A stretch of 64,000 nucleotides of DNA from Planctomycetota bacterium (GCA_018814045.1 JAHJAR010000203.1:1-64000), one strand, 5' to 3'. Shown: positions 28,606-38,833, counted from the first letter of the stretch. The notes: generated by a model not told the origin, from the letters alone. Program-made: numbers and translations.

Positions 28606-29397
28606 CTACTCCGCCGGCTGCCCCGGCGCGTGCCGATGGTGCGGTGCCCGGCGCTGCATGCAATCGGGATAGTCGCACAACTCACACGGGTAGGCCGCCG
28701 GACTGACCTTTTCCGCCGGCCCGATCCCGATCAGCCCCGAAACCGACTTCACCGGCACCATCAGACAACTTGGCGTCAGCCACACCCCAATTATCCGGCC
28801 CGGCAAGCTGGCGAACAGCGGCACTTGCTGCTGGACATCCATGCCGCAGTACCCGGGGCTGTAACGCGGCGTGATCTCCAACCCGCGCTGATGCGCCCAG
28901 GCTTGGACCACGTCCTGACAGCGACCGGCCGTGGCCTCGGCCGCCTCTGAGGCGATCGCATCGGCCAGCGTGCCGCGCAGCACGTCTCCGCGGCGCAGCC
29001 AGCCGCGGCTGAGTCGCTCCAGGGCCGACCCGATCGTGACGACAAACGTGGCCACCAACGTCGCATGCGCCAGGAACCGCCCGATCGCCCCGTGGTAAAC
29101 CGCACCGCTCGCTAAGGCCAGCCGCTCGGGTTCGAACTGCTGCACTTCATCGACGCGAAACACCGCCCGCGGGCGCATTACCCGCGGCAACGCGTCTGCC
29201 AACTCGCGCGCGGCCGCAAACCACCGCTCGTGCGCCGGCCGATCTCGCCGCAAATCCAACCCGCGGGCAATCTGCTCCAGGTCCAGGTCGACGCGCTCGA
29301 AGCGCTCGACCGCGAAATGGAGCGGTTCCCGCGCCGACACACCGCTCATATCGCTGGCCGCGGGGCGGCCTGATTCCTTGGGGTCAACTCGCTTCAA
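28606..29397 (-). CDS. Stand-alone MetH-type activation domain protein (corrinoid reactivation)
   Basis: A 263-residue protein. Residues about 125-235 match the vitamin B12-dependent methionine synthase activation domain: ASEAAEATAGRCQDVVQAWA, RYSPGYCGMDVQQQVPLFAS, LTPSCLMVPVKSVSGLIGIG. It has no substrate or corrinoid domain. In MetH this domain binds AdoMet and re-methylates oxidised cobalamin. After it comes YPCELCDYPDCMQRR, a C-x2-C-x4-C set that could hold an iron-sulphur cluster or metal, which is inference. TTG 29397 overlaps the mtaB-like stop as TTGA; ATG 29349 is the alternative start. Position directly after mtaB supports a role in keeping the corrinoid protein active. Confidence 0.82.
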   Translation of the reverse strand: MKRVDPKESGRPAASDMSGVSAREPLHFAVERFERVDLDLEQIARGLDLRRDRPAHERWFAAARELADALPRVMRPRAVFRVDEVQQFEPERLALASGAVYHGAIGRFLAHATLVATFVVTIGSALERLSRGWLRRGDVLRGTLADAIASEAAEATAGRCQDVVQAWAHQRGLEITPRYSPGYCGMDVQQQVPLFASLPGRIIGVWLTPSCLMVPVKSVSGLIGIGPAEKVSPAAYPCELCDYPDCMQRRAPHHRHAPGQPAE

Positions 29398-30779
29398 TCT
29401 CCGAGTCCGTATGTAGCCGGGTCGTACAATTCGCCATAGCGCGCCCGGGTCGTCTCGATCAGCTCGCCAGCGCTCTCCGGCAGGTCATTATAGGCGTTCT
29501 GCAAACGGTCGAGCCAACGCCGCTCGCGCTCCGACAGCTCCAGCGCACGCGCCTCCAGCCCCTCCTGAAGAATCTGGAACGCCGCCCCCCCCACCGCTAG
29601 CGCGCGGCGATACGGCTCGCGCTCTGCGCAGATTGCCCGCGCCAGCCTCAGCGTGGCCGCGGGGCTGAGCAGCGCTGCCTGGGCACTGAGGTGGGCGTCG
29701 CTCTCAACGTGCAGATCACGCAATTCAAGCTGCGTGCCGCGCGCCGTGGCCGCGTTCAATAAGCGGCAGTCGTAGGCCAGCGTCTCCAGGCTCGCCACCG
29801 GCGCCGGCCCCGAGAGGAGCCGCACGTCGGGCACCGATTCGTTGCTCCACAGATCGGCCATGGCGAGGGCAATGTTGCCGACCGGCGAGAGGTGTGCACA
29901 CGTGGCGCCACGCCCCTCCATGCTGATCGGACACCCGCTGATCGCCTTCAGCACCGGCCCCTCGTAGGCGCAATCCTTCGACGGCCCGACCGCACCCCGC
30001 TCAAACGCCACCAGACTCCGCACGCTCGCGACCGCCCGTACCAGCGCTGCCAGCCCGTCCGGCAACATCCCCTGTTCGCTGAGTTGCATCGCCGTGTTGG
30101 CGAAGCCGCAGGCCGTGTCGCCGCCCGCGACGATCCCGTGCTGGTTCGCCACGGCAACGAAGTGGTCCCACAGCCAGGCCATGTCGCGCGGCGCCAGGAC
30201 GCCCAGCGCCAGCAGGATCCCCGGCAGATCCGCACGGGTCAGGGCAACGTCGTGCACCTCCTTGCCACCGGTCGATTCGATCGACAGGATGTCGGCCCCG
30301 GCGGCGACACAGCACTCGAGTGCCTCCGCCATCTGCTCCCATGCGGCCCCTTCCCGTCGCCGGGGGGGCTTGGTCTCGTCCCGCAAATCGATGATCGTGA
30401 CGCGCAGAGCGGCGGCCAGCCCCCAGCGTTCGTGCGCCCGGCGCAGGTGGTCTTTCAACAGCGCGCTGAGTTCGGCCCCCCAGGCGGGATTCTTCGTCAT
30501 CGGCGGCAACTGCTCGAATTCGACGACCAGCCCCGGCAGAGCCAGCCGCTGGGCGCGTTCGAGCAACGCTGTGATCGTGTCCTCGTAGATCTGGCGAACA
30601 CGCGGCCACGTGCCGTGCTCGACCAACATGGGCGGCAATGTGAAGTTGATCTCGGGGTAGACCAGCCCCGCACCCAGCGTCAGCCCCAACCCGCACGTGA
30701 CCGGCGCCGGTGCCCAGCCGAACACCAGTCCCTCCGCGTCCCGGACAACCGGCTCACTGAATTCCCTGGCTTTGTGCAT
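29394..30779 (-). CDS. mtaB: Methanol:corrinoid methyltransferase-like protein (MtaB family)
   Basis: A 461-residue protein over its whole length like MtaB, which moves the methyl of methanol to a corrinoid protein. Diagnostic stretches: LTLGAGLVYPEINFTLPPM, LPGLVVEFEQLPPMTKNPAW, ADILSIESTGGKEV, GIVAGGDTACGFANTAM, GAVGPSKDCAYEGP and GCPISMEGRGATCAH. The three zinc ligands known in Methanosarcina barkeri MtaB (Glu164, Cys220, Cys269) have exact counterparts at Glu168, Cys224 and Cys270. Start ATG 30779. It is divergent from the corrinoid protein gene and precedes the activation gene with a 4-base overlap. The methyl donor may be methanol or another small methylated compound. Confidence 0.92.
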   Translation of the reverse strand: MHKAREFSEPVVRDAEGLVFGWAPAPVTCGLGLTLGAGLVYPEINFTLPPMLVEHGTWPRVRQIYEDTITALLERAQRLALPGLVVEFEQLPPMTKNPAWGAELSALLKDHLRRAHERWGLAAALRVTIIDLRDETKPPRRREGAAWEQMAEALECCVAAGADILSIESTGGKEVHDVALTRADLPGILLALGVLAPRDMAWLWDHFVAVANQHGIVAGGDTACGFANTAMQLSEQGMLPDGLAALVRAVASVRSLVAFERGAVGPSKDCAYEGPVLKAISGCPISMEGRGATCAHLSPVGNIALAMADLWSNESVPDVRLLSGPAPVASLETLAYDCRLLNAATARGTQLELRDLHVESDAHLSAQAALLSPAATLRLARAICAEREPYRRALAVGGAAFQILQEGLEARALELSERERRWLDRLQNAYNDLPESAGELIETTRARYGELYDPATYGLGD

Positions 30780-30822
30780 CGTTCGTGCTCGTCCTTCCGG
30801 GGCCGTGTGTCCTTCCTACTCT

Positions 30823-30851
30823 CTTATACCCTGAAGCGGTTCATCCTCGAA
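30823..30851 (-). promoter_or_regulatory. Predicted promoter for the mtaB-like gene
   Basis: Minus strand: TTCGAG (30851-30846), 17-base spacer, TATAAG (30828-30823), 43 bases before the mtaB ATG. It overlaps the opposing promoter at 30840-30868. Confidence 0.45.
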
Positions 30852-30868
30852 GCGCGATTGGCTATACT
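30840..30868 (+). promoter_or_regulatory. Predicted promoter for the corrinoid protein gene
   Basis: TTCATC (30840-30845), 17-base spacer, TATACT (30863-30868). It is back to back and overlapping with the mtaB promoter, so one bound regulator could control both sides. The leader of about 108 bases shows no B12 box. Confidence 0.5.
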
Positions 30869-30981
30869 GGTCCAGTTAGGCGCCGTCGGGTGGCCGCCTT
30901 ATCGGCCACCGTCCAGCGCCTGGTCCGCCGCCCGGCGATCCGGGCCAGGGGAGCGCTGCTCCCGGTTTGTTGGAGATACGG

Positions 30982-31626
30982 ATGCCCACACTCGAACAGA
31001 TTGCCAACGCGGTCATCGACGGCGACGAGCAAGCGACGCCGCAACACGTCGAGGCGGCACTCAAAGAGAACATCCCCTCCCGGCAAATCCTGAACGAAGG
31101 TTTGCTCAGCGGCATGACCGAGGTTGGACGCCGCTTTCGCGAGGGCGAGTTCTTCGTGCCCGAGGTGTTGATCGCGGCCGAAGCGATGAAGGCCGGCCTG
31201 GCCGTGTTGCGCTCGGAACTGGTGGCCCAGGGCGTGAAAGCGGCCGCCACCGCTGTCATTGGAACCGTCAGGGGAGATCTGCACGATATCGGCAAGAACC
31301 TCGTGGCCACCATGCTCGAAGGGGCCGGCTTCGAGGTGATCGACCTGGGCGTCGATGTGCCTCCCGAGAGGTTCGTCGAAGCCTGTCGCGAACACAAAGC
31401 CCATGTGGCCGCCCTGAGCGCCCTGCTAACCACGACCATGCCCGAGATGGAAGGCGCCGTGCGGCTACTGCGCGAACAGGTGCAGCCGACACCCGTGGTA
31501 TTGATCGGCGGTGCCCCCGTGACCGATGACTACGCCCGCCAGATCGGCGCCGACGGCTACGGCCGCGATGCCGCCAGCGGCGCTGAGCTAGCCAAGCGGC
31601 TCTGCCAGAAGAAGGCCCCGTGGTGA
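30982..31626 (+). CDS. Corrinoid (cobalamin-binding) methyl carrier protein, MtaC/MtbC-like
   Basis: A 214-residue protein; ATG 30982 follows GGAG by 7 bases. Residues 1-88 form the four-helix cap of B12-binding methyltransferase proteins (IPSRQILNEGLLSGMTEVGR, then FREGEFFVPEVLIAAEAM). Residues 90-214 are the Rossmann-like cobalamin domain with the base-off motif GDLHDIG, where His101 (with Asp99 and Gly104) would replace dimethylbenzimidazole on cobalt. The later ALSALLTTTMPEM and VVLIGGAPVTDDYARQIGADGYGRDA complete the fold. It would accept the methyl group from the MtaB-like protein encoded divergently and pass it to a URO-D-type or other acceptor enzyme. Confidence 0.93.
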   Translation: MPTLEQIANAVIDGDEQATPQHVEAALKENIPSRQILNEGLLSGMTEVGRRFREGEFFVPEVLIAAEAMKAGLAVLRSELVAQGVKAAATAVIGTVRGDLHDIGKNLVATMLEGAGFEVIDLGVDVPPERFVEACREHKAHVAALSALLTTTMPEMEGAVRLLREQVQPTPVVLIGGAPVTDDYARQIGADGYGRDAASGAELAKRLCQKKAPW

Positions 31627-31634
31627 TTTCGACC

Positions 31635-32762
31635 ATGACCTCCCGCCAGCGCGTGGCGCGCACGCTTCGCCGCCAGGAGGCGGACCGCGTGCCGATCTAC
31701 GACAAGTTCTGGTTCGAGACCGAGCGGGCCTGGCGCGAACAGCTCGGGTGCGCGTGGGAGCTCGACCCTCGCCGCTCGCATTTCGACTGGGAAGCGACCG
31801 CCCCGGAAACCCAGATGCGTACGCTCGGTGATGTCTTCGACCTGGACATCGTCGAGGTCGCCTGGCCCGACTACCGCCTGCGCCTGGTCGCTCCGGAGGT
31901 GCTCGAAGAGACGAACGAATCGATCCTGCAACGCGACGGCAATGATGCTGTGCTGCGCTGGTGGAAGCACAAAATGGGCACGCCGGAACACGTCTCGTAT
32001 GGCATCGACACGCCGGAGAAGTGGGCCCGAGTCAAGCCGCTGACAACGACGACGCGCGCGCGCGTGCGCTGGCACGAGTTCTGGCCGCTTTATCGCCGGG
32101 CGCGGGCCGCCGATCGCTTTCTCTGCTTCTGTAGCGTCGAGCCGTTCGAGATCGTCAAGGACATTCTCGGGCATGAGATCATGCTCAAGGCGATGCTCAA
32201 GCAGCCCGAGTGGGTCCACGACGTCTTCGACACTTTCACGCGCCAGATCATCGGCATGTTCGAGCTCGTCGAGGCCGAGGGCATGACCTGCGACGGCGCT
32301 TTCATCTATGGCGATATGGCGTACAACACCGGGCCGTTCATGAGTCCGCGGCACTACCGCGAGTTCCTCTGGCCCTGTCTCAAACGCATCTGCGACGAGT
32401 TCAACCGCCGCGATATGCCCGTGATCTTCCACTCTGACGGCGACATCCGCCTGGTCATCGACGATCTGATCGAGGCCGGCGTGGCCACCCTCCAGCCGCT
32501 CGAGGCCAAGGCGAATCTGGACGTCCGCGAGTTGGCCCCGCAGTACGGCGACCGCGTCGGCTTCATGGGCAACATCGACGTGCGCGTCCTGATGACCAAC
32601 GATACGGAGCAGGTGCGCGCGGAAGTGCGCTCGAAGCTCGCCGCCGCCATGCCCTACCACGGCTACATGTACCACTCCGACCACTCGGTCCCACCGGGGG
32701 TTACGCTCGAGACCTACCGCCTGTTGCTCGAAGAACTGCGCGAATACGGGCAATACCGGTAG
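31635..32762 (+). CDS. Uroporphyrinogen decarboxylase-family protein in the C1 cluster (copy 1)
   Basis: A 375-residue (beta-alpha)8-barrel protein of the URO-D superfamily, to which MtaA, MtbA and CmuA methyltransferases belong. It begins TSRQRVARTLRRQEADRVPI, typical of the family. ATG 31635 is used; GTG 31623 overlapping the corrinoid stop is possible. At the place where MtaA has the zinc motif H-x-C, this protein has His266-Ser-Asp268 (IFHSDGD), and the late Cys is replaced by YHSDHSVPPGV. It is therefore either a methyltransferase with changed metal chemistry or a non-MtaA subfamily. Immediate proximity to the corrinoid gene implies it works on that protein. Confidence 0.87.
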   Translation: MTSRQRVARTLRRQEADRVPIYDKFWFETERAWREQLGCAWELDPRRSHFDWEATAPETQMRTLGDVFDLDIVEVAWPDYRLRLVAPEVLEETNESILQRDGNDAVLRWWKHKMGTPEHVSYGIDTPEKWARVKPLTTTTRARVRWHEFWPLYRRARAADRFLCFCSVEPFEIVKDILGHEIMLKAMLKQPEWVHDVFDTFTRQIIGMFELVEAEGMTCDGAFIYGDMAYNTGPFMSPRHYREFLWPCLKRICDEFNRRDMPVIFHSDGDIRLVIDDLIEAGVATLQPLEAKANLDVRELAPQYGDRVGFMGNIDVRVLMTNDTEQVRAEVRSKLAAAMPYHGYMYHSDHSVPPGVTLETYRLLLEELREYGQYR

Positions 32763-33084
32763 GCGGGCGGAAGGCGCGCCTTTTGCGACACAGGAGCTCA
32801 ACTTTGTCTTCCTTTCCAAGGCTGGAGCGGATACACTAGGTAATAGCCCAATCACCGTCGGCGACTGAGCCGGTCGCAGGACCGGCATCACCGCGGGAGG
32901 CGGGCGGCGATCGGATGCCCGGAACCGGGAAGGAAGCGCAATTCGATCGCACAGGGCGGAAGAGAGGAGTCAATCCAGGCAAACGGGCGCGCTGCAAGCA
33001 CATTCGCGCTGCCACGTGGTCGCTTTGTGTGGATTGCGGGAATGTGAGCGGCGCCCGTGCAAGTAACGATGGGAAGGACCGATC
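32763..33084. other. Untranslated leader region of the dockerin-tagged exoprotein
   Basis: 322 bases with no gene. A 7-base hairpin, GCCGGTC/GACCGGC, lies at 32869-32886. A longer-range 8-base pairing, ACGGGCGC (32983-32990) with GCGCCCGT (33051-33058), encloses 60 bases just before the ribosome site. The region may be a structured leader. No known riboswitch consensus fits. Confidence 0.45.
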
Positions 33085-35481
33085 ATGAAGCGCACTTCCG
33101 CAGTCGCCCTCATCCTGGCGCTTTTTGCGCCACTCGCCGTGGCAGATACGTTCACCTGGGCTCAGGCGTTCGACGGCAACTGGGTCTACGGATCTTTCTG
33201 GGACCTGCCGGGATACCCGCAGAACGCCGGCGACTCAGCGGTCATCGGCGTTGCGGGGGCTTACACAGTCTCGCTGGATACGTCGCCGTCGATTGACTGG
33301 CTGAACATCAGCAACGCCTACGCCACCCTTCACATTAGCTACAATTATACGTTGACGCTGCGCGAGGCCGCCGGCCTGACCAACAGCGGCATGGTTTACG
33401 CCACCGGGGGCAGTGCGATCGTCGGCGCCGTCAACAATCACGCCACCATTTGGTCCAATAGCGGCACGTGCACAATCACCGGCGACGTCACTAATCACGC
33501 TGGGGCGGAGATCCTCGCCGTTGGCACTCCGACGACCCTGGTGCTGAACGGCCCCACGGTCACCAACGAAGGCACCATCCTGGTACAGTGCTCCAGCTTC
33601 TACACTGCCGAATTGCGTTTCGACGACAATGTCACCCTCCAGGGCGGTGGTACACTCGAGCTGGACGACACGCTTGGCGAGGCTCATCTGACGACGGGCG
33701 GGGGTTGCGCACTGACACACGCGGCGAATCACACCGTCGGCGGACACGGCCGGGTTCTCGCCAATGTGATTAACGAGGGCCTGATCCAGGCTGACGTGGC
33801 GGGCACGATACTCGAGCTGCAAACCGAGCCGAAAACCAACAACGCGACGATGAAGGCGACGGGCGGCGGCAGGCTGAGGATAAACGCAATCACGATCACG
33901 CAGGGACCGGGCGGCGTGCTCCAAGCCGACGCCGGCAGCGTCGTCGAATTGCTCAGTCAGGTCACCATTGTCGGCGGCACGTTGAACACGCTCGGCGATG
34001 GCGTGCTCGACTGCTGGGCCGGTACGAAGACGCTGACCGACGTGGCCAACCTCGGCCGTTACGAGCTCAACCGCATGTCCACGAACGTCGTCACCGGTGC
34101 AACGTTCGTCAACGACGGGACCATCGTGGTGAACGGCGACGACTACTACAGTTCGTACCTGCGCTTTGACAGCGCGGTCGATTTCCAGGGCAGCGGCACA
34201 ATCATCTTGAACAGGCGCGTTAGCGGCGCCCAGTTGAATACCGGCGACGGCGTTACGCTGACGCACCCATCCGGTCACACCATCCGCGGCATGGGCCAGA
34301 TCAATGCTGCCATGGTCAATGCAGGCGGAATCGACGCAGATGTTTCGGGGGAAGCACTGACCCTACAGACGAACAACAAATCCAACACGGGCACCATGAC
34401 GGCCACCAATGGCGCGATACTGTCCAGCAGCGGAATCGACATCGACAATACCGGCGGCGCGATCCTCGCTGATGGTGGCGCCGTGCAGCTCACGAACACT
34501 ACTATCACCGGCGGCACGCTCGGCAGCGCTGCCGGCTCTGAGATCATCGGCTACGCCGGCGTCACGCTGTCCGACGTTACGTTGCCGGAAGGCACGACCT
34601 ACGCGGTCGACTACTACGACACCACCACGGTCGCCGGAACGCTGAGCACGAACAATGGCATGATGGAATGTCGCTCGCACGGGACACTGGATGTTCTTGC
34701 GGATGTGGATGGAACCGGTGGCTGGTACGCCAACGACGGCGTGATTAGGTTCAACAGTGGTGTGAACGTAACGACGGCCGGGCCGATCCAAATTGACCAG
34801 GACGACGGTCGCGTCGAAGTCATTGCGGCCGACGTCGGTGCTTCAGACCTTAGATTGGACAAGAGCGGTCGACTGACGGTCGGTGGCTCGCTCACGCTCT
34901 CCGGCGATTTGGACTTCGCCGCGACGAACGAGGGGAAGTGGATTTGGGACCCTGCGGCAACACTGACGATGACGGGCACCAGCGACCTCAACGGCTGCCA
35001 TACGCTGTTTTGGAGCACGCTGGAGGTCGGTGACCGCGACAACGGTACGGGCGGCCCCGACTCGAATCGTTTCGACATCACGAACCTGGCCCTGGCCACG
35101 AACGCCGTCGTCACACTCGTCGACAAGCGCGACAACGGCAATGGCCTGCTCGAGTCCCTGTACGTCGAGACTCTCACGCTCGCCACGGACGCCGTTCTGA
35201 ACCTCAACGGACTGCACCTGTACGTCCACACAGGGCCGGATTACACGCTGATGGAGGTGGGTCCCTACGGCAGCGGCGAGATCATCGATCAACCGGTACT
35301 GCTCATCGGCGATGTCAACACTGACGGCGTGGTCAATGGCTTCGACATCGACGTCTTCGTAGCGGTGCTGATCGGCGAAGACACTGATCCCGACCATGTC
35401 TGTGCCGCCGACTGCAACGCCGACGGCGACGTCAACGGCTTCGACATCGACCCGTTTGTGGCGCTGCTGCAAGGCGGTTGA
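33085..35481 (+). CDS. Large secreted beta-rich protein with dockerin-like tag
   Basis: A 798-residue exported protein. ATG 33085 follows AAGGA by 7 bases and a signal peptide ends near LAVADTF. The body is made of short beta-strand repeats rich in Gly, Thr, Asn and Val (units such as GGTLNTLGDGVLDCWAG and TNEGTILVQ), of the beta-solenoid, autotransporter-passenger kind. It contains two related blocks, one near 125-290 and one near 345-460, both of the form ELRFDDNVTLQGGGTLELDD / YLRFDSAVDFQGSGTIILN. The C-terminus has two calcium-loop units (VNTDGVVNGFDIDVFVAVL and CNADGDVNGFDIDPFVALL). It separates the two URO-D genes and is unlikely to take part in C1 chemistry. Confidence 0.9.
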   Translation: MKRTSAVALILALFAPLAVADTFTWAQAFDGNWVYGSFWDLPGYPQNAGDSAVIGVAGAYTVSLDTSPSIDWLNISNAYATLHISYNYTLTLREAAGLTNSGMVYATGGSAIVGAVNNHATIWSNSGTCTITGDVTNHAGAEILAVGTPTTLVLNGPTVTNEGTILVQCSSFYTAELRFDDNVTLQGGGTLELDDTLGEAHLTTGGGCALTHAANHTVGGHGRVLANVINEGLIQADVAGTILELQTEPKTNNATMKATGGGRLRINAITITQGPGGVLQADAGSVVELLSQVTIVGGTLNTLGDGVLDCWAGTKTLTDVANLGRYELNRMSTNVVTGATFVNDGTIVVNGDDYYSSYLRFDSAVDFQGSGTIILNRRVSGAQLNTGDGVTLTHPSGHTIRGMGQINAAMVNAGGIDADVSGEALTLQTNNKSNTGTMTATNGAILSSSGIDIDNTGGAILADGGAVQLTNTTITGGTLGSAAGSEIIGYAGVTLSDVTLPEGTTYAVDYYDTTTVAGTLSTNNGMMECRSHGTLDVLADVDGTGGWYANDGVIRFNSGVNVTTAGPIQIDQDDGRVEVIAADVGASDLRLDKSGRLTVGGSLTLSGDLDFAATNEGKWIWDPAATLTMTGTSDLNGCHTLFWSTLEVGDRDNGTGGPDSNRFDITNLALATNAVVTLVDKRDNGNGLLESLYVETLTLATDAVLNLNGLHLYVHTGPDYTLMEVGPYGSGEIIDQPVLLIGDVNTDGVVNGFDIDVFVAVLIGEDTDPDHVCAADCNADGDVNGFDIDPFVALLQGG

Positions 35482-35627
35482 AGCACGGCCGGCACACAGC
35501 AGGCGACCACCTGCGCGACTCCGCGGCCGCGCAGCCGCGTGCCGCGCGCACGCGGTCCCGCCACGATTTCCCGGAAGCCCCTCTCCGTCAGGCAAGTCGC
35601 GGTATACTCCGCACACGGAGGCGTACC

Positions 35628-36761
35628 ATGGAACGACGCGAAATCGTCGAACGTGCCATCACCTTCGGCCGACCGCCGCGGCTGCCGCTGAAGTTCGACA
35701 TCGTCGGCGTGAACGACTGTTACGATGTCTGGACACACGATCCGAGCGGCTGGTCCTGGGATTTCGCTGTTCAGGCCACCGACGAATGGGGCTGCGTCTG
35801 GCGGCGGACGGGCGTCGACAACACCGGGCAGGTCGTCGGCCACCCGCTCCAGGATCTCGCCAGACTGCCCGCGTTCTCCTGGCCCGACCCCGAAGAGCCC
35901 GCCCGCTATCGCGATTTCGAAGAGCAACTAGCCAAGGCGGACGATCGGTTCGTCATGCTCTGCTTTGGCCAAGGCATCTTCGAGCGGCTGCACATGCTGT
36001 GCGGCATGACCGAGACGCTGATGGGCTTCTACCGCCACCCCGCCCAGATGCACGAGATCCTGGATCGCATTCTCGATCATCACCTGCGCGTCCTCGATAA
36101 CTGCTTGAGAATTGCGGCGCAACACCGGCGCGGCGCCGGTGCCACACAGGCGATGCATGCGGCGGCGATGGCCGACGACTGGGGCTTGCAGGACCGCGCT
36201 TTCATCAGCATCAAGCTCTTTCGCGAGTTCTTCAAGCCGCGCTACCAGCGCTGGTTCGACGAGATCAAGGCTGCCGGCCTGCACCCCTGGATGCACTCCT
36301 GCGGCCGGATTAACGACATTCTCGAAGAGCTGATCGACTGCGGCCTCGAGGTCATCAATTCCCAGCAGCCGAACACGGTGGGCATCGACGAAATCAGCCG
36401 GCGTTTCCGCGGTCGCATCTGCTTCGAATCCATCGTTGACACGCAGTCAACCTTGCCGCACGGCACGCACGACGAAATCCGCGCCCAAGCCCACCAACTC
36501 GTCGACGCCTGGGGCACGCCCGAGGGTGGCTTCATCGCCAGCGACTACAACGACGCCGCCGCGATCGGCGTCACCACCGAACGCCGGCGGGTGATGTTCG
36601 CAGCCTTTGCCGAGAAAGGGCACTACCCGAATTATCGCGCTGTCCTGGACCGGACGCACCCCCACCCCGCGGGTCATTCGTGGGGCCGCGCGACCACCAG
36701 GTCGCACGACCTAGCGCGAGGAACCGAAACCGAGCCGCGACCAGGCGAACCTGAGCCGTGA
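35628..36761 (+). CDS. Uroporphyrinogen decarboxylase-family protein (copy 2), 3' end formed by a repeat
   Basis: A 377-residue URO-D superfamily protein; ATG 35628 follows GGAGG by 7 bases, and TATACT at 35603-35608 is a likely -10. Here the zinc motif H-x-C is present (His223-Ser-Cys225 in WMHSCGRIND), as in MtaA-type methyltransferases, but the expected late Cys is absent where GGFIASDYND occurs; Cys265 is nearby in sequence only. The barrel ends near residue 342. The last 35 residues (THPHPAGHSWGRATTRSHDL and on) are low complexity, and the final part is encoded by a family A repeat, so the original stop was probably lost. A methyltransferase or related role is inferred from the cluster. 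Confidence 0.85.
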   Translation: MERREIVERAITFGRPPRLPLKFDIVGVNDCYDVWTHDPSGWSWDFAVQATDEWGCVWRRTGVDNTGQVVGHPLQDLARLPAFSWPDPEEPARYRDFEEQLAKADDRFVMLCFGQGIFERLHMLCGMTETLMGFYRHPAQMHEILDRILDHHLRVLDNCLRIAAQHRRGAGATQAMHAAAMADDWGLQDRAFISIKLFREFFKPRYQRWFDEIKAAGLHPWMHSCGRINDILEELIDCGLEVINSQQPNTVGIDEISRRFRGRICFESIVDTQSTLPHGTHDEIRAQAHQLVDAWGTPEGGFIASDYNDAAAIGVTTERRRVMFAAFAEKGHYPNYRAVLDRTHPHPAGHSWGRATTRSHDLARGTETEPRPGEPEP

Positions 36762-37849: not shown

Positions 37850-38833
37850 CTAACGCGGGGTGGCGTAGGAGACGTCACGCGTTGCCAGCAAGTAGAAGAA
37901 GAACGCCGCCCCCAGGATATTCGTCAGCACACCGACCGGAATCTCGTACACGCTCAGCGCCCGGGCGAACCCGTCGCAGACCGCCAGGAAGGCGCCGCCG
38001 ACGAAGGACGAGCCGAGCACCAGCGGCAGTGTGCGCATGCCGACGAGCGTACGGGTGATGTGCGGGATCATCAGCCCGACAAACCCGATCGGTCCGCAGT
38101 TGGAGACGATCACCGCCACGAGCAGGCCGACCAGGATGTAGCAGGTCCAGACGGTGGTCCCCACGGCCACGCCCCGAGTGGCGGCCAGTTCGTCGCCCAG
38201 CGCCAGCAAATCCAGGGCCCGGTGTGAGTAAAGGGCGTAAGCAACGACAGGAACAAGGATGATGGCGATCTCCAGCCAGGCTCGCGGCCGCAGGATCGCC
38301 AGCGAGCCCATCATCCAGATAACGATGTCGTTGGTCACCGCCTGCTCGGCCAGGTAGGTGATCAATAGGATGCCGGCGGCGGACATATACGCCACGCACA
38401 CGCCCGCCAGCAACAGGCGCGTCAGATCGCGGCCGGCTCGCAGGCGGGCCATCAGATAGACCACGCTCATCGCCGCGGTTGCACCGCCGAACGCGCCGAG
38501 GGCCAGCCGCGGCACGCCCAGCCAGTAGCCGGTCACGCCACCCAACATAGCCGCGGCCGCCCCCAGCGAGGCTCCGCTGGCGATGCCGAGGGTATAGGGG
38601 GTGGCAAGCGGGTTGCGGAAGAGCGCCTGGAAGATGACTCCGCCGAGCGCCAATCCAGCACCGGCGCAGGCCGCCAGCGCGGTGCGTGGTGCCCGAAACT
38701 GCCAGTAGACGTCGCCGCGCAGCCCGCCCGCGTGGTCTTGCCCGGGTGGCCCCAGCAACGACGACGACGCGATCAGAAGCAAAGTCACGGGAATCAGGAG
38801 CGCGAAGCGCACCAGCATCGAGCGCGTGCCCAT
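37850..38833 (-). CDS. FecCD/BtuC-family ABC transporter permease
   Basis: A 327-residue integral membrane protein with about nine or ten hydrophobic helices. Family signs: LALGGVIFQALFRNPLATPYTLGIASGASLGA, GPIGFVGLMIPHITRTLVG and DGFARALSVYEIPVGVLTNILGAAFFFYLL. Such permeases import iron siderophores, haem or vitamin B12. No ATPase or typical solute-binding protein gene is adjacent in the window; instead two lipoprotein genes precede it on the same strand. B12 uptake would suit the corrinoid cluster 5 kb away, but nothing in the sequence fixes the substrate. Confidence 0.9.
   Translation of the reverse strand: MGTRSMLVRFALLIPVTLLLIASSSLLGPPGQDHAGGLRGDVYWQFRAPRTALAACAGAGLALGGVIFQALFRNPLATPYTLGIASGASLGAAAAMLGGVTGYWLGVPRLALGAFGGATAAMSVVYLMARLRAGRDLTRLLLAGVCVAYMSAAGILLITYLAEQAVTNDIVIWMMGSLAILRPRAWLEIAIILVPVVAYALYSHRALDLLALGDELAATRGVAVGTTVWTCYILVGLLVAVIVSNCGPIGFVGLMIPHITRTLVGMRTLPLVLGSSFVGGAFLAVCDGFARALSVYEIPVGVLTNILGAAFFFYLLATRDVSYATPR

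Follow-up and report, generated by a model that had tools for sequence, protein, structure and literature searches.

The MtaB-containing module described here is real and conserved in three genomes, and what is new about it is the combination of MtaB and MtaC with a MetH-type reactivase (Rea) and a non-thiol URO-D partner (UroD1), the usual downstream enzymes being absent. It lies within a 64,000-nucleotide stretch of a Planctomycetota MAG (GCA_018814045.1, JAHJAR010000203.1:1-64000), the whole of which is referred to below as the window. By sequence, the cluster is a C1 methyltransferase module that depends on cobalamin, and its first enzyme belongs to the MtaB family. In a search of open-licence papers, MtaB modules of planctomycetes were nowhere described. 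We tentatively favour a four-step explanation, in which MtaB would load MtaC, Rea would repair MtaC, UroD1 would act on MtaC and the methyl group would pass to homocysteine, and as a whole we give it somewhat less than an even chance of being right.

Organization of the module

The core genes are arranged as two facing pairs, mtaB-rea and mtaC-uroD1 (Table 1). mtaB overlaps rea by 4 bp. With a uroD1 start at GTG 31620, mtaC and uroD1 share 7 bp; with a start at ATG 31635, a gap of 8 bp separates them. The mtaC reading frame extends from 30967 to 31626 (+), and ATG 30982 was taken as the best start. The initial annotation of this DNA, which had named an MtaB-like protein, a corrinoid carrier with DLHDIG and a stand-alone MetH-type reactivation protein, was upheld on all three. 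It had also placed two URO-D-family proteins together; both are present, but uroD2 is 2.9 kb from uroD1, past the dockerin-protein gene, and the core is not contiguous with it. The dockerin protein is probably outside the module. Approximately 1.1 kb past uroD2, a FecCD-type ABC transporter permease is encoded at window positions 37850-38833 (-), scoring under all curated BtuC/Fhu cut-offs. GC and GC3 of the module are the same as those of its surroundings, and the GC of contig C37 (see below) equals that of the window.

Table 1. Coordinates of module features and neighboring genes in the window
Feature	Coordinates	Strand	Description	Family match
rea	28606-29397	-	stand-alone MetH-type (AdoMet) reactivation-domain protein, 263 aa	PF02965
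mtaB	29394-30779	-	methanol:corrinoid methyltransferase family, 461 aa	PF12176, 488.6 bits
mtaB/mtaC divergent intergenic region	30780-30981			
mtaC	30982-31626	+	stand-alone corrinoid protein, 214 aa, DLHDIG	
uroD1	31620-32762	+	URO-D superfamily, H271-x-D273 and possible third ligand H355	PF01208, 87.9 bits
dockerin-bearing secreted protein	33085-35481	+	798 aa	PF00404
uroD2	about 35628-36761	+	URO-D superfamily, HxC, third position without Cys	PF01208, 50.5 bits

Divergent overlapping promoters had been proposed between mtaB and mtaC; a scan for one promoter type returned no sigma-70-like site in 30600-31150, and an Rfam search of the window returned no riboswitch, cobalamin type included. 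Both a cobalamin riboswitch and a sigma-70 divergent promoter were dropped as candidates for this region. ORFs antisense to mtaC and uroD1 (P0003, P0004 and P0009) and a long frame (P0013) were judged spurious.

Identification of MtaB and MtaC

MtaB was matched by PF12176 over its full length (profile positions 9-459 of 460). Its zinc ligands Glu168, Cys224 and Cys270, correctly named in the initial annotation, align with E164, C220 and C269 of the M. barkeri enzyme (alignment to 2i2x_A), and the E-C-C set is invariant across 22 aligned MtaB proteins. The NCBIfam MtaB equivalog cut-off was missed (391 bits versus 720), as it was by three further bacterial MtaB proteins (416-443 bits), so that this model looks tuned to methanogens; identity between the present MtaB clade and the methanogen enzyme is 37%. 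In an MtaB tree sampled without a characterised acetogen MtaB and with M. barkeri as a long branch, the window protein pairs with that of locus L042 (97/88) and then with that of L043 (100/100), deeper branches being weakly placed. MtaC is the best PF02310 match in the genome, its best PDB match is 1y80, which we take to be a Moorella corrinoid protein, and it is 49% identical to the corrinoid protein of contig C37.

In the first proposed step, methanol or a comparable small O-methyl compound would be the donor, and the Zn site of MtaB would move its methyl group onto Co(I) of MtaC. This step is well supported by the family assignment, the catalytic ligands and the conserved partner, from which activity and substrate are predicted; methanol itself is the presumed substrate on grounds of family membership.

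Occurrence and conservation

The module is rare. mtaB is single-copy in this genome and, in a sample of 392 genomes from across the phylum, was found in 6, this one among them. The phylum of the host was assigned from its nearest homologues. The arrangement of mtaB-rea facing mtaC-uroD1 is also present in two Phycisphaerae MAGs (L042 and L043), and because of this recurrence it is far beyond chance gene grouping. These two loci supply the closest MtaB proteins (68-69% identical to that of the window), with identities to the window proteins of 66-70% for MtaC, 61-64% for UroD1 and 54-55% for Rea. L042 has one extra URO-D gene between mtaB and mtaC, L043 has a uroD2 orthologue near the module, and no pterin methyltransferase, RACo or homocysteine S-methyltransferase (HcyMT) was detected within 10 kb of either. 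More distant MtaB proteins, from Acidobacteriota (L044, 54%) and Neomarinimicrobiota (L045, 51%), both have mtaC directly upstream, L045 as a uroD-mtaC-mtaB operon. In the stretches covered around many other bacterial mtaB genes (L046, L047, L050, L051, L054, L056 and L028-L031), no corrinoid gene was detected, and at L027 and L028 a predicted P-loop protein (GFLGSGKT) adjoins mtaB.

The MetH-type reactivation protein

The sequence of Rea matches the C-terminal half only of the MetH activation family. Its AlphaFold model (mean pLDDT 85.8) was best matched by TM0269 of Thermotoga and was also matched by the AdoMet-bound MetH domain, and both its fold and its AdoMet-binding motif are those of the MetH activation-domain family. 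Among Rea relatives, SPG in the AdoMet motif never varies, and a CxxCxxxxC at the C terminus is almost fully conserved. Such relatives were found in 30 of the 392 sampled genomes, the protein at mtaB being the sole match in this one.

At seven planctomycete loci (L107-L112 and L123), Rea is encoded beside or one gene from a stand-alone corrinoid protein, together with URO-D (L107-L110) or MttB (L111, L112 and L123), and five of the seven (L109-L112 and L123) also carry HcyMT. Lower-scoring relatives (e.g. L113, L115-L120) are without a nearby corrinoid gene and may have another function. Since RACo and Rea are carried together by L122 and L123 (the L122 call coming from a profile that had included L122), Rea is no strict RACo substitute elsewhere.

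In the second proposed step, Co(II)-MtaC would be reactivated by Rea through AdoMet-dependent reductive methylation in the manner of the MetH activation domain, in place of the RACo/RamA that methanogens and acetogens drive with ATP. The fold, the SAM-type motif and the absence of RACo from this genome are consistent with such a reaction.

The URO-D proteins

UroD1 carries H271-S-D273; around the third position it has HSDHS, in which H355 is a candidate ligand conserved in all three modules. UroD2 carries HSC and lacks the third-position Cys. Neither protein has the His-Cys-Cys site of the thiol-type URO-D enzymes MtaA, MtbA and Mlp. Thiol-methylating URO-D enzymes are marked by His-Cys-Cys, and O-type enzymes have carboxylates or other residues instead of Cys (PMC10418091). 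The metal motif of UroD1 would thus be a better fit to an enzyme for O-methyl donors than to one of the CoM acceptor type, and UroD1 as a CoM-type thiol methylase was disfavoured by its H-x-D. The fold of UroD1 is not decisive, since its model, of moderate quality (pLDDT 75.9), matched both URO-D and MtaA.

Elsewhere in the genome, which yielded 12 URO-D matches and 21 B12-binding matches, a His-Cys-Cys URO-D is encoded on contig C229 and another adjoins a corrinoid protein on C136. The two C136 genes (L037:8157-10000) overlap and constitute a second, thiol-type corrinoid methyltransferase pair; a similar URO-D adjoins a corrinoid protein and Rea at L107.

In the third proposed step, UroD1 too would use this MtaC, its likeliest role being that of a second enzyme for O-methyl donors. 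The opposite assignment, in which UroD1 takes the methyl group from MtaC and delivers it to H4-folate or a thiol, is unlikely in our judgement. It draws on UroD1 being the sole candidate adjoining mtaC in all three modules, on the L045 operon and on the MTHFR of this genome, but it has to be set against H-x-D in place of the His-Cys-Cys of thiol methylases and the lack of any pterin-binding family match in UroD1. The acetogen MtaA also speaks against it, being in Moorella a 29.7-kDa protein that carries the methyl group to H4-folate (PMC13391211), as does a recent tree in which bacterial MtaA is in one group with the pterin-type MtvA, MtqA and AcsE (PMC13222342).

The donor might instead be a methoxylated or otherwise O-methylated compound (e.g. 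plant or algal polysaccharide products) rather than methanol, with MtaB and UroD1 as two donor enzymes sharing MtaC, a reading suggested by the O-type metal site of UroD1, the several URO-D genes around the module and the low identity of this MtaB clade to the methanogen enzyme. It is rather improbable, as all characterised MtaB-family enzymes act, to our knowledge, on methanol and no linked polysaccharide gene was shown.

Fate of the methyl group

No acceptor enzyme was recognisable within the cluster. On contig C37 (L032:9765-12815), MttB, a corrinoid protein and HcyMT are encoded in one operon without Rea and without a pterin subunit, which may constitute a methionine synthase that needs no folate and is supplied by some MttB substrate. 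This operon is 59-73% identical to operons of the planctomycetes G019 and G192, in which Rea sits between MttB and the corrinoid gene. The gap is reciprocal, the C37 operon having no Rea and the sole Rea being at mtaB, and suggests that the two systems may share parts, with Rea contributed by one side and HcyMT by the other.

In the fourth proposed step, the methyl group would most likely be passed to homocysteine by the unlinked HcyMT of the C37 operon or by MetH, giving methionine; MetH and UroD1 are possible alternative exits. HcyMT next to corrinoid genes was looked for in the L042 and L043 genomes and not found, and because their HcyMT genes lie away from corrinoid genes the claim of a homocysteine exit was lowered. 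Corrinoid-HcyMT pairs turned up in G187 and G314, two further genomes that carry MtaB. On the strength of the planctomycete loci that place Rea beside corrinoid-protein and HcyMT genes, and of the unlinked C37 operon, the homocysteine exit appears better supported than an H4-folate exit and is still unproven. A folate-independent path from methanol to methionine, in which MtaB loads MtaC, Rea uses SAM rather than ATP and RACo, the stand-alone HcyMT accepts the methyl group directly and neither acetogenesis nor methanogenesis takes place, is a distinctly doubtful proposition.

Clusters of URO-D, a corrinoid protein and HcyMT were observed in other planctomycetes (L109:5283-9162, L110:2537-5883 and L162:2-2597), with Rea in L109 and L110, and are possible URO-D-fed methionine synthases. 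Each of the three genomes with mtaB-rea has a stand-alone HcyMT that adjoins a similar gene resembling a TIM-barrel sugar isomerase/epimerase (L149:8901-10631, L152:9335-11084 and L153:8991-10780).

Enzymes absent from and present in the genome

Whole-genome searches, for which control genomes were positive, returned no MtrH, no acetyl-CoA synthase CdhC, no methenyl-H4MPT cyclohydrolase (MCH) and no RACo/RamA activase. The initial annotation had seen no CoM pathway in view; on these genome-wide searches the methanogen and acetogen routes are absent. Of the H4-folate C1 genes it had suggested looking for, MTHFR and a complete MetH were recovered and a dedicated H4-folate exit enzyme was not, pterin-type searches of the whole genome yielding only MetH and dihydropteroate synthase (DHPS; 257.8 bits, above the curated cut-off); the acetyl-CoA synthase it had also listed is the CdhC missing above. 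Neither the pterin-type MtaA and acetyl-CoA synthase of acetogen MtaABC nor the MtrH of the Mtr complex and H4MPT enzymes of the methanogen system were found. With MtrH, CdhC, RACo, MCH and pterin MT2 all missing, an acetogen or methanogen route was rejected, for a MAG that is 94.8% complete with 7.35% contamination in 365 contigs, where absences and between-contig linkage are not absolute. Simple loss of the acceptor and activase genes from an incomplete MAG, concealing an ordinary MtaABC of acetogen-like or methylotrophic type, is scarcely credible: the completeness, contig number and MTHFR would allow it, but joint chance loss of MtrH, CdhC, RACo and pterin MT2 is unlikely and the sister modules are likewise without pterin methyltransferase, RACo and HcyMT nearby.

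One proposal in the literature is to use mtaB as the marker gene of strictly anaerobic methanol users (PMC5770442). Here MtaBC occurs in a genome lacking acetyl-CoA synthase, RACo and any dedicated acceptor methyltransferase, which suggests that methylotrophic energy metabolism should not be read from mtaB alone. Two questions become directly testable: whether a stand-alone MetH-type domain can repair a corrinoid protein that is substrate-specific, and whether the methyl group of methanol can pass straight to methionine.

Comparison with known systems

With MtaBC of Methanosarcina (MT1) and MtaABC of Moorella and Acetobacterium, the module has in common the Zn ligands and, as partner of MtaB, a corrinoid protein bearing DxHxxG; it differs in its MetH-type reactivase and in a genome without RACo, pterin-type MtaA, and a CoM or acetyl-CoA route. 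The mlp gene clusters likewise combine several URO-D proteins and a corrinoid protein without an H4-folate methylase, but theirs are a Ram/RACE activase and a His-Cys-Cys URO-D, in place of the MtaB, Rea and H-x-D UroD1 found here (PMC10418091).

The split methionine synthase/MtgBCDE of marine bacteria likewise has a stand-alone corrinoid protein and HcyMT in one genome, with a donor methyltransferase feeding the corrinoid (PMC12478193, PMC5764234). The principle is illustrated by such published systems: in marine bacteria, a dual role in demethylating betaine and in making methionine has been proposed for MtgC (PMC12478193), and in Phaeobacter genetic work demonstrated a split methionine synthase (PMC5764234). 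The first enzyme here is MtaB and not the MttB-type MtgB, RamA is absent, no MtgD-like separate pterin-binding subunit was found in the genome besides DHPS and MetH, and HcyMT is on another contig, the pairing of corrinoid protein and HcyMT being that of C37, outside the window cluster. As for the reactivase, TM0269 of Thermotoga maritima is a stand-alone MetH activation domain needed for TM0268 reactivation, according to a title cited in PMC7857596. Rea has the same fold, also as a separate polypeptide, but is paired with MtaB and MtaC and bears the C-terminal CxxCxxxxC that is conserved in most of its relatives.
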